24,669 nucleotides of DNA. Origin: a virus. The translations under genes and the position numbers were made by a program. The stretch lies in the IMG/VR virus record IMGVR_UViG_3300042563_000350, positions 1 to 24,669 of that record, one strand, 5' to 3'. Each line of letters opens with the position of its first letter. Within the stretch, counting starts at the first letter, position 1. Below, piece by piece: positions 4,438 through 24,669 of this stretch. The notes beneath the pieces are model-generated. The model was not told the DNA's origin, searched no databases, and saw only the letters and a program-made list of their open reading frames with translations.

Positions 4438-4453
4438 TGTGACTTTCGTCACA
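4438..4453. promoter_or_regulatory. CRP/GlxR-type operator upstream of P1
   Basis: TGTGACTTTCGTCACA is a perfect match to the TGTGA-N6-TCACA consensus bound by CRP-family regulators, including actinobacterial CRP and GlxR. Its centre is about 53 bp upstream of the predicted start of P1. As minus-strand RNA it would also form a 5-bp stem with a GAAA tetraloop, so an RNA role is a weaker alternative. Confidence 0.7.
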
Positions 4454-6413: not shown

Positions 6414-6456
6414 TGTTGTAGCCCCTTCAGACTTGTTGGATATCTGCCATCATCAG

Positions 6457-6493
6457 GCACAGTAGATAATCTCTGTGCGACTCCTCACGGAGT
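6457..6493 (-). terminator. Double hairpin, attenuator or partial terminator
   Basis: Two perfect inverted repeats follow the 35-aa gene: ACTCC-TCAC-GGAGT (6480-6493) and GCACAG/CTGTGC with a 10-base loop (6457-6478). There is no U-tract, so partial termination or mRNA processing between the first and second gene is more likely than a full stop. Confidence 0.5.
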
Positions 6494-6498
6494 TTCGG

Positions 6499-6606
6499 CT
6501 AGTCTTCTTCCCCTTCTTCCCAATCGTGGCAATCTCCCGACCCCTCGCAAGGTTCCTCGCATAGTTCCCACACTGTGTATTTCATTCCACATTCGTAGCA
6601 CTTCAT
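6499..6606 (-). CDS. Cys-rich acidic micro-protein, 35 aa, first gene of P3/P4 operon
   Basis: ATG at 6606 lies about 20 nt downstream of the start predicted for promoter P3 and is preceded by gaaaggga, a good Shine-Dalgarno, so translation is likely despite the small size. The product contains five cysteines: MKCYECGMKYTVWELC, then EPCEGSGDC, and ends in DWEEGEED, a very acidic tail. A single metal-binding knot is plausible (C3, C6, C16, C20, C26). No family recognised. It is the most strongly promoted gene of the block, since two promoters in tandem point to it. Confidence 0.68.
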   Translation of the reverse strand: MKCYECGMKYTVWELCEEPCEGSGDCHDWEEGEED

Positions 6607-6632
6607 ATTTTCCCTTTCGTTATGTTGTTATC

Positions 6633-6661
6633 ACTCTATCAAGTGTGTAACACTTTGTCAA
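6633..6661 (-). promoter_or_regulatory. Promoter P3, TTGACA-17-TAGAGT
   Basis: Minus-strand -35 TTGACA (6661-6656), 17-bp spacer, -10 TAGAGT (6638-6633). The spacer contains the perfect palindrome AAGTGT-GTA-ACACTT (6641-6655). It drives the operon that begins with the gene at 6606. A second promoter (P4) lies 99 bp upstream. Confidence 0.86.
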
Positions 6662-6671
6662 GTAATATCTC

Positions 6672-6687
6672 TGTGACTTTCGTCACA
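6672..6687. promoter_or_regulatory. CRP/GlxR-type operator upstream of P3
   Basis: TGTGACTTTCGTCACA, perfect consensus and identical to the P1 site, ends 11 bp upstream of the -35 (inner 14-mer to hexamer). Confidence 0.7.
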
Positions 6688-6731
6688 CTCTCAGTGTTGC
6701 TCTATTTCTAGGGCTTCACCTTGATAAATCA

Positions 6732-6760
6732 AGCGTAACACAGTATGAAAGGAATGTCAA
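6732..6760 (-). promoter_or_regulatory. Promoter P4, TTGACA-17-TACGCT (tandem with P3)
   Basis: Minus-strand -35 TTGACA (6760-6755), 17-bp spacer, -10 TACGCT (6737-6732). The sequence around the -10 (ACTGTGTTAC) is shared with P5. Only a degenerate form of the spacer palindrome is present (AGCGT-AAC-ACAGT at 6732-6744). Just downstream lies the palindrome CTTGAT-TT-ATCAAG on the minus strand. No gene intervenes before P3, so P4 probably acts as a second start for the same operon. Confidence 0.7.
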
Positions 6761-6770
6761 GTCAATTCCA

Positions 6771-6786
6771 TGTGACATCCGTCACA
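6771..6786. promoter_or_regulatory. CRP/GlxR-type operator upstream of P4
   Basis: TGTGACATCCGTCACA has perfect TGTGA/TCACA arms but a different central hexamer from the other three copies. Spacing to the -35 is again exactly 11 bp. Conserved arms with a changed centre favour recognition of the arms as DNA. Confidence 0.7.
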
Positions 6787-6880
6787 CCACTATTGCAAGC
6801 AAGGTGCTAACTACTGCAAGCACTAGGCGGTACTGTTGCTAGCAGACGATGCACCCCTTAGTTTTGTTAGGAGACTCTGT

Positions 6881-6998
6881 GGGGGGTGGCGTGACGAGAC
6901 TTGCCTACCTACCAGTTGGTAGTTGCAGATGCAACTAACTAAACTAGTTGCTGTGTGCAGTTTTGTAGCGCAACTGGGGCTATGCCGAGCCGCCCCCC
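6881..6998 (+). other. Candidate multi-branched RNA or cluster of alternating AGTTGC/GCAACT sites
   Basis: GGGGGGTGGC (6881-6890) can pair with GCCGCCCCCC (6989-6998) over 10 bp with one G-U. Inside lie CTACC-AGTT-GGTAG (6909-6922), TAGTTGCA-GA-TGCAACTA (6920-6937), GCAACTA/TAGTTGC (6931-6951) and CAGTT/AACTG (6958-6976). The second hairpin excludes the first and third, so two alternative folds exist. Read as DNA, AGTTGC occurs four times in alternating orientation (6921, 6931, 6946, 6970). Confidence 0.45.
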
Positions 6999-7040
6999 CT
7001 GGTATACATTGAGTATTGGGACAAATACAGAACCACTCTT

Positions 7041-7100
7041 TTGCTGGGTGTGTGGTTGGGTGTCACTGTGTGTGGTGGGTCGTCACTCTGCGTGGTGTTG
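7041..7100 (+). repeat. GT-rich imperfect tandem repeat, 20-bp period
   Basis: Units 7061-7080 and 7081-7100 share GTCACT, then TG, then GTGGTG at the same offsets (about 15 of 20 bases); 7041-7060 is a more degraded third unit. One strand is strongly G/T-biased, followed by a GGGAGGGAGGAGGAG run. Confidence 0.5.
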
Positions 7101-7558
7101 TACGGTTGGCGAGGGAGGGAGGAGGAGTCTCCAAACTGGAAGGTCACCTGCTTAAGTTGGCAAGGAAAGAAAAAAAGAAATTCACCGACTTGGAAGTTGG
7201 ACCTAGACTTTGATGTTGCTTCTTTGCAAACAACCGCTGGCGTAGCCAAGGGCGTTAGCCGCTTTAGCGGAACCTGATGACTAGCAGACTGGTCTTAGCC
7301 TCCCCCACGGTTTAGATACCAAACTGATACCAAGGTCGCCGTAGCCAAATTCTTTTAGCCGACACCTGAAAGGTTGAACATATGTCGTTGTTCACGCTGC
7401 TTGAATCTCTTACACAATAGGGGAACAACCATCTGTTTCAGATGTTCTTGATTGCAGGATTCATCTACCCCAGTTACCTGGTGTGAAATGCCCCGTACCA
7501 TGCAAACGGTATACAGCCATGCGAGAAATGAACTTGTGCGACGAAGCATAGCAGGTGG

Positions 7559-7567
7559 TGTTATTGT
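7559..7567 (+). promoter_or_regulatory. Extended -10 (TGT-TATTGT) for a leaderless transcript
   Basis: TATTGT (7562-7567) with the TGN extension ends 7 nt before ATG at 7575, and no Shine-Dalgarno precedes that ATG. The predicted transcript starts at or within a base or two of the start codon. It is one of four such arrangements in the late region. Confidence 0.55.
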
Positions 7568-7574
7568 TTCCAAC

Positions 7575-7739
7575 ATGAAATCAAAACCTGTTTGGGAAAA
7601 ACCAAACCCTAAAAAGAAATCTACTCCTCTCTCTCCTGCTCAAAAGACAGCAGCGAAAGCACGGGCTAAGAAGGCGGGTCGTCCGTACCCGAATCTTGTT
7701 GATAACATGGCTGCATCCCGAAACAAAAAAGGAAAGTAA
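7575..7739 (+). CDS. Small basic protein (GRPYPNLVDN type), 54 aa
   Basis: The product is very basic and ends with a box K-K-A-G-R-P-Y-P-N-L-V-D-N-M-A-A, a pattern I associate with small hypothetical proteins near the terminase genes of actinophages and other environmental phages. Function is not known; nucleic acid or capsid-interior binding is plausible from charge (KPNPKKK, KARAKKAGR). I chose ATG at 7575: the extension to 7452 has no protein-like composition and its region is full of hairpins. There is no Shine-Dalgarno, but an extended -10 lies 7 nt upstream, so leaderless initiation is proposed. Confidence 0.8.
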   Translation: MKSKPVWEKPNPKKKSTPLSPAQKTAAKARAKKAGRPYPNLVDNMAASRNKKGK

Positions 7740-8135: not shown

Positions 8136-10109
8136 ATGGGAACAAAACGAATTGTTCCAGTACAAGACAAAGTTAAGTTCTTTGCTCTCATTTCCGCTGG
8201 ACGAAACATTAAAGACGCTTGCGCTGAGGCGGGTATCCACTACAACACAGGTAGTAGATGGGTTAAGAAGGCTAAAGAACTAGAAGCAGGGCATAAGTCT
8301 GCTGTTCATAAAGCCGCTACTGGTGCTGGGTCTGGTGGTCGCCAAGAACTGCAACACATGAACTTCATGGATGCCATTGATATGCCATCCGCTATCCCTC
8401 ATGACATGCTTTCCGAGGAAGCCTTACGAGGGTTGGAAGATTTTGATTACTTCCGTCGCCGTTATCTAGGGCGAGTGCCAAGTCCGTGGCAGGTTGAAGC
8501 CGCTGTGACTCTTGTAAAACTGTTGGAGTCCGAAGAAAAAGAATTTGTAGTAATTAATGTCCCACCAGGAGCAGGTAAGTCCACCTTGTTTCATGATGTG
8601 GCTGTGTGGGCGATAGTACGCAACCGACGGGTACGAGTCATGATTGGGTCTGTGTCTCAGAACATGGCGAAGATGTATTCCCGTCGTATCCGTGAAACTC
8701 TAGAACGAGTATCACCAATTCTCCCAGACCCAGGCATGGTTCAAAAGGGATTAGCAATAGATGCAGAAGGATGTTTAACAATTGACTACGGAAGATTCAA
8801 ACCAGTGGACAAAGGTGCGCTTTGGCGTGCCGATGAGTTCGTCGTGGAGCAACTTGACGGAAATGGTTTGGACAACAAAGAGCCAACTGTCCGTGCATAC
8901 GGAATTGAAGCAGAGTTCATTGGGCACCGAGCCGACCTATGCCTCTTTGACGATGTTGCCTCACCTGACAATGCGAGAGAAAGCGTGGCTAGGGACAAAC
9001 TTTTGGAAAGATGGGACGGAGTGGCAGAAGCCCGTTGCGACCCAGGCGGGTTGTTGGCTGTTGTCGGGCAGAGACTCGGTTCGGGGGACCTTTACGCTCA
9101 TTGTCTCGCCAAAGAAACATACGACATTGAAGAAGATATCAATTACGATGGGTCAGATGTCCATACCCCTGAAGATGTATCTGAAGGTGTACCAGTACGG
9201 CAAAAAAAGTACAGGCATATTGTCTATCAAGCGTATTATGAAGAACTTGACACGGGTAAAGAATCTCGTTCTTTCAAATCTTTACCGTATCCAGACGGAC
9301 CGCTACTAGACCCCAAGCGTCTACCGTGGAAAGACCTATCTTTCATTAAATACAACAAACCAGATGTATTCAAAGTTGTATATCAACAAGAAGACTTGGA
9401 CTTGGATTCTAAACTGGTACAACGCACATGGATTACTGGTGGCATGGGGCTAGATGGGGTGGACTACCCAGGATGTGTAGATGGTGACCGCCAACCAGGG
9501 TATATCCCTGAAGGTTTAGCCCACCCGTGGGTATCTATCGTCGCTGTAGACCCCTCACCTACAATGTTTTGGGCGTTTGTGTGGATTATTTACCAGCCGA
9601 ACACGAACCTTTACCATGTTGTAGACATTGAACGAGTCAAACTATCCGCTGAAGAAGTGCTTGGTTATGACACCATGACTGGTGAATACTCAGGGCTGAT
9701 GGACAGGATGCAGGAACGCTCATACCAAATGGGCTACCCAATCTCGCATTGGGTTGTAGAGATTAACGCAGCCCAGCGTTTCCTTCTGGCTCACGACTTT
9801 GTACGCAAATGGCAAGCCCTACACCGAGTCAATGTGATACCACACACCACAAGCCGAAACAAACTAGACGAATCCCTAGGTGTGGAAGCACTACTGCCAG
9901 CAGTTATCAGGTCAGGCGCACTACGCCTACCGTCTATGAAGGGCAACTGGAAGACCCTTGCAGCCACAGACGAGTTAACTAAATGGTCACGAGACAAGAA
10001 ACACGGCACCGACATTGTTATGGCACTATGGATGGCACTACTCAACTTGCCGAACCTCACAGAATCCAAACCACCACCCCGCCAATGGCGACCATCCTGG
10101 CTTAAGTAA
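8136..10109 (+). CDS. terL: Terminase large subunit with N-terminal helix-turn-helix, 657 aa
   Basis: TerL is the ATP-driven motor and nuclease that packages DNA through the portal. Domains: a helix-turn-helix-like N-terminus (about 10-50; SAGRNIKDACAEAGIHYNTG), the ATPase with Walker A P-P-G-A-G-K-S-T (143-150) and Walker B-like D-L-C-L-F-D-D (267-273), and a C-terminal RNase H-fold nuclease with candidate metal ligands D472 (AVDPS), E542 (VVEINA) and D626 (GTDIVMA). The length is at the upper end for TerL, because of the N-terminal extension. No separate small terminase gene is visible, so the N-terminal HTH may do part of the DNA recognition; alternatively the small subunit lies outside the window or is one of the small basic upstream proteins. 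The portal gene follows after 48 bases. Confidence 0.96.
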   Translation: MGTKRIVPVQDKVKFFALISAGRNIKDACAEAGIHYNTGSRWVKKAKELEAGHKSAVHKAATGAGSGGRQELQHMNFMDAIDMPSAIPHDMLSEEALRGLEDFDYFRRRYLGRVPSPWQVEAAVTLVKLLESEEKEFVVINVPPGAGKSTLFHDVAVWAIVRNRRVRVMIGSVSQNMAKMYSRRIRETLERVSPILPDPGMVQKGLAIDAEGCLTIDYGRFKPVDKGALWRADEFVVEQLDGNGLDNKEPTVRAYGIEAEFIGHRADLCLFDDVASPDNARESVARDKLLERWDGVAEARCDPGGLLAVVGQRLGSGDLYAHCLAKETYDIEEDINYDGSDVHTPEDVSEGVPVRQKKYRHIVYQAYYEELDTGKESRSFKSLPYPDGPLLDPKRLPWKDLSFIKYNKPDVFKVVYQQEDLDLDSKLVQRTWITGGMGLDGVDYPGCVDGDRQPGYIPEGLAHPWVSIVAVDPSPTMFWAFVWIIYQPNTNLYHVVDIERVKLSAEEVLGYDTMTGEYSGLMDRMQERSYQMGYPISHWVVEINAAQRFLLAHDFVRKWQALHRVNVIPHTTSRNKLDESLGVEALLPAVIRSGALRLPSMKGNWKTLAATDELTKWSRDKKHGTDIVMALWMALLNLPNLTESKPPPRQWRPSWLK

Positions 10110-24111: not shown

Positions 24112-24669
24112 ATGGCTACAACTAACATCATTGTTACAAGGGCAACTGAAACCGTAGGGTTGATTACTTCGGGAACTGTCACGGTTGTTTCTACTTCACA
24201 GTCTGGTCCTCAGGGTGCGACTGGACCGACAGGACCTACTGGTCCCACAGGAGCCGCATCAACGGTTACAGGACCTACTGGAGCCACTGGTGCTAACTCC
24301 ACAGTAACTGGACCGACTGGACCGACTGGTCCTACTGGTGCTGATTCGTTGGTAACTGGACCTACGGGTGCGCAAGGAGTCACTGGTCCCACTGGTGCAA
24401 CAGGGGCTGCTTCTACCGTTACAGGTCCTACGGGACCGACTGGAGCCACAGGTGCTGCAAGTACTGTCACTGGACCTACAGGACCGACAGGTGCCGACTC
24501 GTTCGTTACAGGACCTACAGGTCCTACTGGACCTACAGGGGCTACAGGCGCAGCCAGCACGGTGACAGGACCGACAGGTCCGACAGGTCCCGCTGGAACA
24601 AACGGCATCATCGGGGTTGATGGAGCCACAGGTCCTACAGGACCTGTCGGACCTGTCGGTCCTGTCACC
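24112..24669 (+). CDS. Collagen-like tail fibre, 3' end cut by window edge
   Basis: The visible 186 residues start with a short beta-rich lead ([20 protein letters not shown]) and then run as Gly-x-y triplets, mainly Gly-Pro-Thr and Gly-Ala-Thr, which form a trimeric collagen-like rod in phage fibres. The rod is broken at regular intervals by short non-collagen pieces of the type AASTVT, ANSTVT, ADSLVT and ADSFVT, so the unit is a run of triplets plus a 4-6 residue hinge, repeated about seven times. A VTGxTG junction follows each hinge. Start: ATG at 24112, two bases after the previous stop, with gaggtagc as ribosome site. The receptor-binding end lies beyond the window. Many Thr and Ser could be glycosylated by the nearby transferase. 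The antisense frame stays open because of the codon bias. Confidence 0.93.

Follow-up and report, generated by a model that had tools for sequence, protein, structure and literature searches.

What does the gene-free interval between the two oppositely oriented gene blocks of this virus contain, and does the palindrome-rich stretch at 6881-6998 form a functional unit of its own? The analyzed DNA, in the following called the window, comprises a virus record of 24.7 kb (IMGVR_UViG_3300042563_000350; 24,669 nt). Its genes run mainly leftward left of 6413 and rightward from about 7576 on, and the interval 6414-7575 comprises no credible gene. The genes from about 7576 on encode small basic proteins, the terminase large subunit (TerL, PHROG 38), portal and capsid. 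A WhiB gene at 781-1050 and a weak similarity of TerL to those of Streptomyces and Mycobacterium phages, among others, suggest an actinobacterial host. A search of the window for tRNA and tmRNA genes gave none. At its right end (24112-24669) lies a collagen-like GPTGPT repeat protein, whose frame is still open at the end of the record.

A first-pass annotation had read 6881-6998 as a multi-branched switch RNA or, alternatively, as a cluster of alternating DNA sites. Both readings were compared with the sequences of related phages. The coordinates of all features are given in Table 1.

Elements of the stretch 6881-6998

The proposed switch was closed by an outer stem of 10 bp. The two complementary 10-mers are indeed present, but they are not conserved as a stem. 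Only 57.5% of the cells were paired in 8 close relatives, and among 75 relatives the arms of the same phage reached -25.5 kcal/mol compared to -27.3 kcal/mol for arms swapped between phages, so that a phage's own arms fit no better than foreign ones. The cross-pairing test and the pair counts rule out a conserved outer stem.

Inside this stem, overlapping palindromes at 6909-6922, 6920-6937 and 6931-6951 had been taken as the basis of two mutually exclusive folds. These palindromes (H1, H2 and H3 in Table 1) exist and are kept in the 8 close relatives, where 91-95% of the cells are paired through sequence identity. The covariation test for H1-H3 showed no excess and had no power, as the arms hardly vary; for the same reason, an RNA hairpin and a DNA site cannot be distinguished here. 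Most of the family has no H3, and more distant relatives carry other palindromes in place of H1 and H2. Both exclusive folds could form; evidence that both are selected is absent, and neither covariation nor phylogeny lends support to a two-state switch. The single-sequence fold of 6870-7010 is mildly better than chance (z of -2.1; 4 of 200 shuffles). The riboswitch or attenuator reading found no support: the alternative hairpins do not covary, and they are linked neither to a terminator nor to a sequestered start site. No terminator-like site was found in 6881-6998, and the first downstream gene is about 580 bp away.

Other parts of the annotation were confirmed. AGTTGC or its complement GCAACT occurs four times in alternating orientation within 55-56 bp (starts at 6921, 6931, 6946 and 6970). 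This clustering is beyond chance: no hexamer was found four times in 56 bp in any of 300 dinucleotide shuffles. It is also correct that no protein gene overlaps the stretch, the short ORFs in it not being conserved as frames.

A large structured RNA at 6974-7525

In a blastn comparison of the intergenic region with 80 TerL-bearing relatives, conservation extended from about 6970 to about 7522, past most of the flagged stretch, while upstream of this core the sequences of the relatives differ strongly. A structured RNA is present as the annotation had supposed, but it is the downstream region and not the fold drawn at 6881-6998. The main feature was missed by those coordinates; it starts at about 6974, runs to about 7525 and gives an RNA length of about 550 nt or more. 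A covariance model matched 7300-7535 with 235.8 bits, and this is the sole copy in the window. The best reading of 6881-6998 is a variable leader of this larger RNA, presumably close to its promoter.

The helices were derived by mutual-information analysis of 73, then 126 copies. For the pair counts, 71 representatives with a median identity of 67% were aligned by MAFFT, independently of the structure. Across 40 base pairs, 94.0% of the cells comprise standard pairs, a percentage that is somewhat flattered by deriving the structure from the same family; this does not explain the gap to both controls. Both-side changes occurred in 29 of the 40 pairs, and 606 cells were changed on both sides compared to 184 in shuffles. 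The covariation score was 0.510, whereas shuffling gave 0.145 (sd 0.006) and sliding at most 0.101. Compensatory base changes thus exceed both the shuffled and the slid controls, as is characteristic of a structured RNA. Since G-U/U-G cells (222) outnumber A-C/C-A cells (64), the RNA is assigned to the plus strand. Two phage lineages (see below) share this conserved plus-strand fold with its covarying pairs.

The conserved sequence is concentrated in a few places. GGT.GCCGT and TTTAGCCGACACC are, like the CCCCCAC block, invariant across the 71 representatives, and the 5' half (6974-7212) shows sequence conservation at its start. The RNA has a strongly conserved centre (CCCCCAC, GGTCGCCGT and TTTAGCCGACACC) held by covarying stems, and variable peripheral hairpins. 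In about one third of the representatives the inner hairpin 7415-7454 is missing, while the stem 7402-7408/7457-7463 around it is kept and is formed by different base pairs; a peripheral domain of an RNA would behave in this way. Most relatives carry an additional 3' hairpin, CCTTGACGCT..AGCGTGGAGG, after the core (equivalent to 7526-7550); the window (7523-7575) and its close relatives are devoid of it. A long-range stem AACTGGGG/CCCCAGTT (6974-6981 with 7468-7475) from the first consensus fold was dropped, as its 3' arm takes part in the local covariation of the hairpin 7470-7481.

A protein-coding origin of the conserved block was ruled out, since no reading frame is conserved and the indels in the core are not multiples of three. 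Only 6 of 756 frames in 126 copies are open through 310 nt. An ORF of the contig L218 (5257-5493) with tblastn matches in other loci overlaps the RNA in part, and the matches fall in this overlap, so that it represents the RNA read as protein.

Table 1. Features of the window and second copies of the RNA in other contigs (positions in the window unless a contig is named).
Feature	Position	Strand	Basis or remark
CRP/GlxR-type palindrome TGTGA-N6-TCACA	4438-4453		binder predicted
CRP-type palindrome TGTGACTTTCGTCACA	6672-6687	.	adjoins leftward promoter-like site 6661-6633 (-)
CRP-type palindrome TGTGACATCCGTCACA	6771-6786	.	leader
Three 13-bp direct repeats ACTATTGCAAGCA	6789-6844	.	spaced 21 and 22 bp; iteron-like
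Left arm of proposed outer stem	6881-6890	+	rejected as conserved stem
Palindrome H1 CTACCTACCAGTTGGTAG	6905-6922	.	leader; also upstream of the core in many relatives
Palindrome H2 TAGTTGCA-GA-TGCAACTA	6920-6937	.	palindrome kept in relatives, no excess covariation
Palindrome H3 GCAACTA..TAGTTGC	6931-6951	.	close relatives only; 91.1% paired in 8 relatives
Right arm of proposed outer stem	6989-6998	+	rejected; overlaps 5' part of RNA core
Core of large structured noncoding RNA	6974-7525	+	blastn conservation, covariation, covariance-model match; 5' and 3' ends approximate
Conserved 5' motif AACTGGGGNTNTGCCGAGSC	6974-6994	+	alignments of relatives
Conserved CACTCTTTTGCTGGGTG block in 5' part of RNA, hairpin-like (putative pairing)	7034-7050	+	alignment
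CCCCCAC block	7302-7308	+	invariant in 71 representatives
Covarying helix 7315-7318/7328-7331	7315-7331	+	both-side changes in 4/4 pairs
Helix 7333-7336/7364-7367 around GGTCGCCGT and TTTAGCCGACACC	7333-7367	+	most conserved sequence of the RNA
Covarying helix 7376-7380/7389-7393	7376-7393	+	both-side changes in 4/5 pairs
Helix 7402-7408/7457-7463 around helix 7415-7426/7444-7454	7402-7463	+	both-side changes in 7/7 and 6/10 pairs
Covarying hairpin 7470-7473/7478-7481	7470-7481	+	99.6% paired; both-side changes in 63 cells
Covarying hairpin 7495-7499/7508-7512 with pair 7491/7516	7491-7516	+	
Terminase large subunit	8136-10109	+	first large gene downstream of RNA; PHROG 38
Second RNA copy, contig L148	12232-12368	-	covariance model
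Second RNA copy, contig L149	799-935	+	covariance model
Second RNA copy, contig L192	2838-2974	+	covariance model
Second RNA copy, contig L165	12985-13123	-	covariance model

Distribution in two phage lineages

Two pattern scans and a TerL protein scan of IMG/VR yielded at least 127 unique copies of the RNA on over 100 distinct contigs. Among the matches listed, 173 loci (a redundant set) have a TerL match, and in every one of them the RNA precedes TerL in the same orientation, at distances from 0.2 to 3.4 kb. The exceptions L150 and L191 carry a different TerL (phrog_979), and L150 also has another portal (phrog_156) and another major capsid protein (phrog_14242). A search with the phrog_979 TerL led to 80 further loci, 23 of which contain the RNA according to a profile HMM. 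The covariance model built from the alignment added diverged copies of this second lineage with E-values of about 1e-13, which are rough due to the short calibration. Seven contigs of the second lineage with a TerL about 71% identical gave no meaningful model match, the RNA being absent or too diverged there. The two RNA-bearing lineages are unrelated and apparently infect Actinobacteria.

In the second lineage, the genes immediately downstream of the RNA are not those of the window, but encode a 119-aa protein (no assignment), SSB and WhiB. In four contigs, moreover, the main copy is accompanied by a diverged second one on the same strand, at a distance of about 11 kb (Table 1).

Cultured phages showed no DNA match, near or distant, and the covariance model found nothing in the four that were also checked with it. 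Arthrobacter phage Vibaki and Pelagibacter phage HTVC115P, whose TerL is similar to that of the second lineage, do not carry the RNA according to the model. GTDB genomes gave no match to exact string patterns of about 21-22 fixed bases, which diverged copies would escape.

Operator-like sites in the leader

The leaders of the relatives contain 157 short palindromes compared to about 30 in shuffles, a five-fold excess. Besides CRP-type, ParB-like and LexA-like sites, their lexicon comprises GTTGCA..TGCAAC and CTACCT..AGGTAG, the palindromes of the flagged stretch. TGTGA-N6-TCACA, which we take to be a CRP/GlxR-type site, occurs in 54 contexts in related loci, whereas permuted half-sites gave a mean of 2.8. 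In 37 of the 54 contexts a TTGACA-like (-35-like) hexamer starts exactly 10 nt beyond the box, and this constant distance indicates a fixed promoter geometry. Together with the sites of this type in the window (Table 1), this makes the early leftward promoters look wired to a CRP-type regulator of the host. The exact 16-bp sequence TGTTTCACGTGAAACA, presumably the parS site of chromosomal ParB, was found in nine unique intergenic contexts from eight related loci (e.g. in the leaders of L092 and L110), with an expectation far below one. Palindromes of the form CGAAC-N4-GTTCG, which we assume to be LexA/SOS-box-like, were present in 15 contexts in the leaders of relatives, e.g. L064, L065 and L076. 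For all three types the binding protein is a prediction from the site.

About half of the relatives (e.g. L012, L053 and L073) share a further conserved element before the RNA core, CCCATAATGTTAGTTATGTAAT, which is absent from the window's own clade and is possibly a promoter containing an operator.

Proposed role of the RNA and alternative explanations

Altogether, we consider it probable that 6974-7525 on the plus strand is the gene of a large structured noncoding RNA whose class is absent from Rfam and which most likely acts in trans, and that 6881-6998 is its promoter-proximal leader with protein-binding sites or short hairpins. The RNA would be transcribed rightward from the palindrome-rich leader and, by analogy to the large phage RNAs GOLLD and ROOL, could act as a folded RNA or RNP. 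The exchange between unrelated genomes, the changing neighbors and the second copies are easier to reconcile with an independent RNA than with a cis element belonging to a single operon. An action in trans is further argued for by the variable distance to TerL and by a promoter-like sequence, TTGACA-N17-TACTAT, read between the RNA and the following genes in L218 of the second lineage. Against this explanation stand the window's lack of one 3' hairpin present in most relatives and the fact that the RNA always heads the late rightward genes in the window's lineage.

This last observation would also fit the main rival, in which the RNA is a 5' leader of great length that precedes the late operon and acts on it in cis, through antitermination or control of translation. 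The constant position of the RNA upstream of TerL on the same strand is in line with it, and so is the interval from the RNA to the first late gene of the window, which is devoid of a convincing intrinsic terminator. However, a leader of this operon would not be expected ahead of other genes, at such different distances from TerL, twice within one phage about 11 kb apart, or separated from the downstream genes by a promoter-like sequence, and we therefore regard it as rather unlikely. Still far less probable is an RNA-based replication origin, in which the RNA would be a preprimer or replication-control RNA and the direct repeats and palindromes upstream of it the origin elements. Gene direction and GC skew both turn at the location of the RNA, the repeats at 6789-6844 resemble iterons, and some cluster A mycobacteriophages provide a precedent of a noncoding RNA needed for replication (PMC7157519). 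Yet the covariance model found nothing in the origin regions of the phages RedRock and Alma, homologues of their ParA, ParB or Pol I were not found in the fetched loci, and in the second lineage the genes on either side of the RNA point in one direction.

For the flagged stretch itself, a switch RNA with two exclusive folds is hardly credible: the preservation of H1, H2 and H3 in the close relatives is outweighed by the unconserved outer stem, the lack of covariation and the loss or replacement of these palindromes in the rest of the family. A DNA operator array for host or phage regulators ahead of the RNA gene appears more likely than the switch. The alternating-site reading of the first-pass annotation fits a leader better, the leaders of relatives being rich in short palindromes. 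The excess of palindromes, the CRP-type boxes with their fixed spacing to a -35-like hexamer and the parS and LexA-like sites speak for it; on the other hand, no binder is known for GTTGCA..TGCAAC or CTACCT..AGGTAG, and such sites would fold as RNA hairpins, too. For a purely DNA-based function of 6881-6998, which would be compatible with the trans-acting RNA, the chances are about even. As for the AGTTGC palindromes, their most probable role is the binding of proteins to the DNA (or the formation of short hairpins in the leader), and not that of a switch.

With more reserve, the trans-acting RNA can be placed in a wider picture. It might represent a new class of large RNAs in phages and could work as a ribozyme, an RNP scaffold or an RNA-only assembly; it would be exchanged between unrelated phages of uncultivated Actinobacteria, with its synthesis wired to host regulators via CRP-, ParB- and LexA-type sites in the leaders.

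Comparison with known RNAs

Very large structured RNAs known from bacteria and phages are few in number, and what GOLLD and ROOL do has yet to be established. As a further class, the present RNA offers a new object for structure determination: it measures about 550 nt or more, comes in over 100 natural variants and combines clear covariation with a compact centre that does not vary. Its occurrence in two unrelated phage lineages, and twice in some phages, makes the role of such RNAs testable once a host is cultured. As far as can be judged from sequence, this points to a further large RNA machine encoded by phages whose hosts are uncultivated.

At the gathering threshold, Rfam 15 gave no family for the window, and the relaxed search (E up to 10) only two chance-level matches far below their gathering scores. 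For 16 relatives (E up to 5) no Rfam match was obtained. A targeted search for GOLLD (RF02032) in the window and three relatives (E up to 10) was negative. The same holds true for ROOL (RF03087) in the Rfam searches and in a targeted search, which had no positive control among the control genomes. No description of this RNA was found in open-licence papers.

Like this RNA, late-operon leader RNAs and attenuators of phages precede late genes in the same orientation, whereas this RNA is followed by other genes in the second lineage and occurs in two copies in some phages. With the parABS cluster A mycobacteriophages Alma, LadyBird and RedRock, the present case shares an intergenic noncoding RNA in actinobacteriophages; replication of some cluster A phages depends on a noncoding RNA that lies in a region of about 600 bp ahead of parA (PMC7157519).

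The closest likeness is to the ornate RNAs. A homo-oligomeric cage is a criterion for GOLLD, and a homo-octameric one for ROOL. GOLLD is a large structured RNA of phages and prophages with a conserved 3' part, a variable 5' part and unknown function, and ROOL has been described near tRNA islands (PMC12286853). Like GOLLD, the present RNA is large, phage-borne and structured, with a conserved 3' part and a variable 5' part, and like ROOL, it is a large ornate phage RNA of similar length (574 positions in the ROOL model). In contrast, its conserved sequence and position differ from those of GOLLD, and the tRNA neighborhood of both RNAs is missing, with two tRNA-Asn predictions among all fetched loci. 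The RNA is filed as a new class of large structured phage noncoding RNA and not under GOLLD or, as far as the Rfam searches and a targeted search with no positive control allow, under ROOL.
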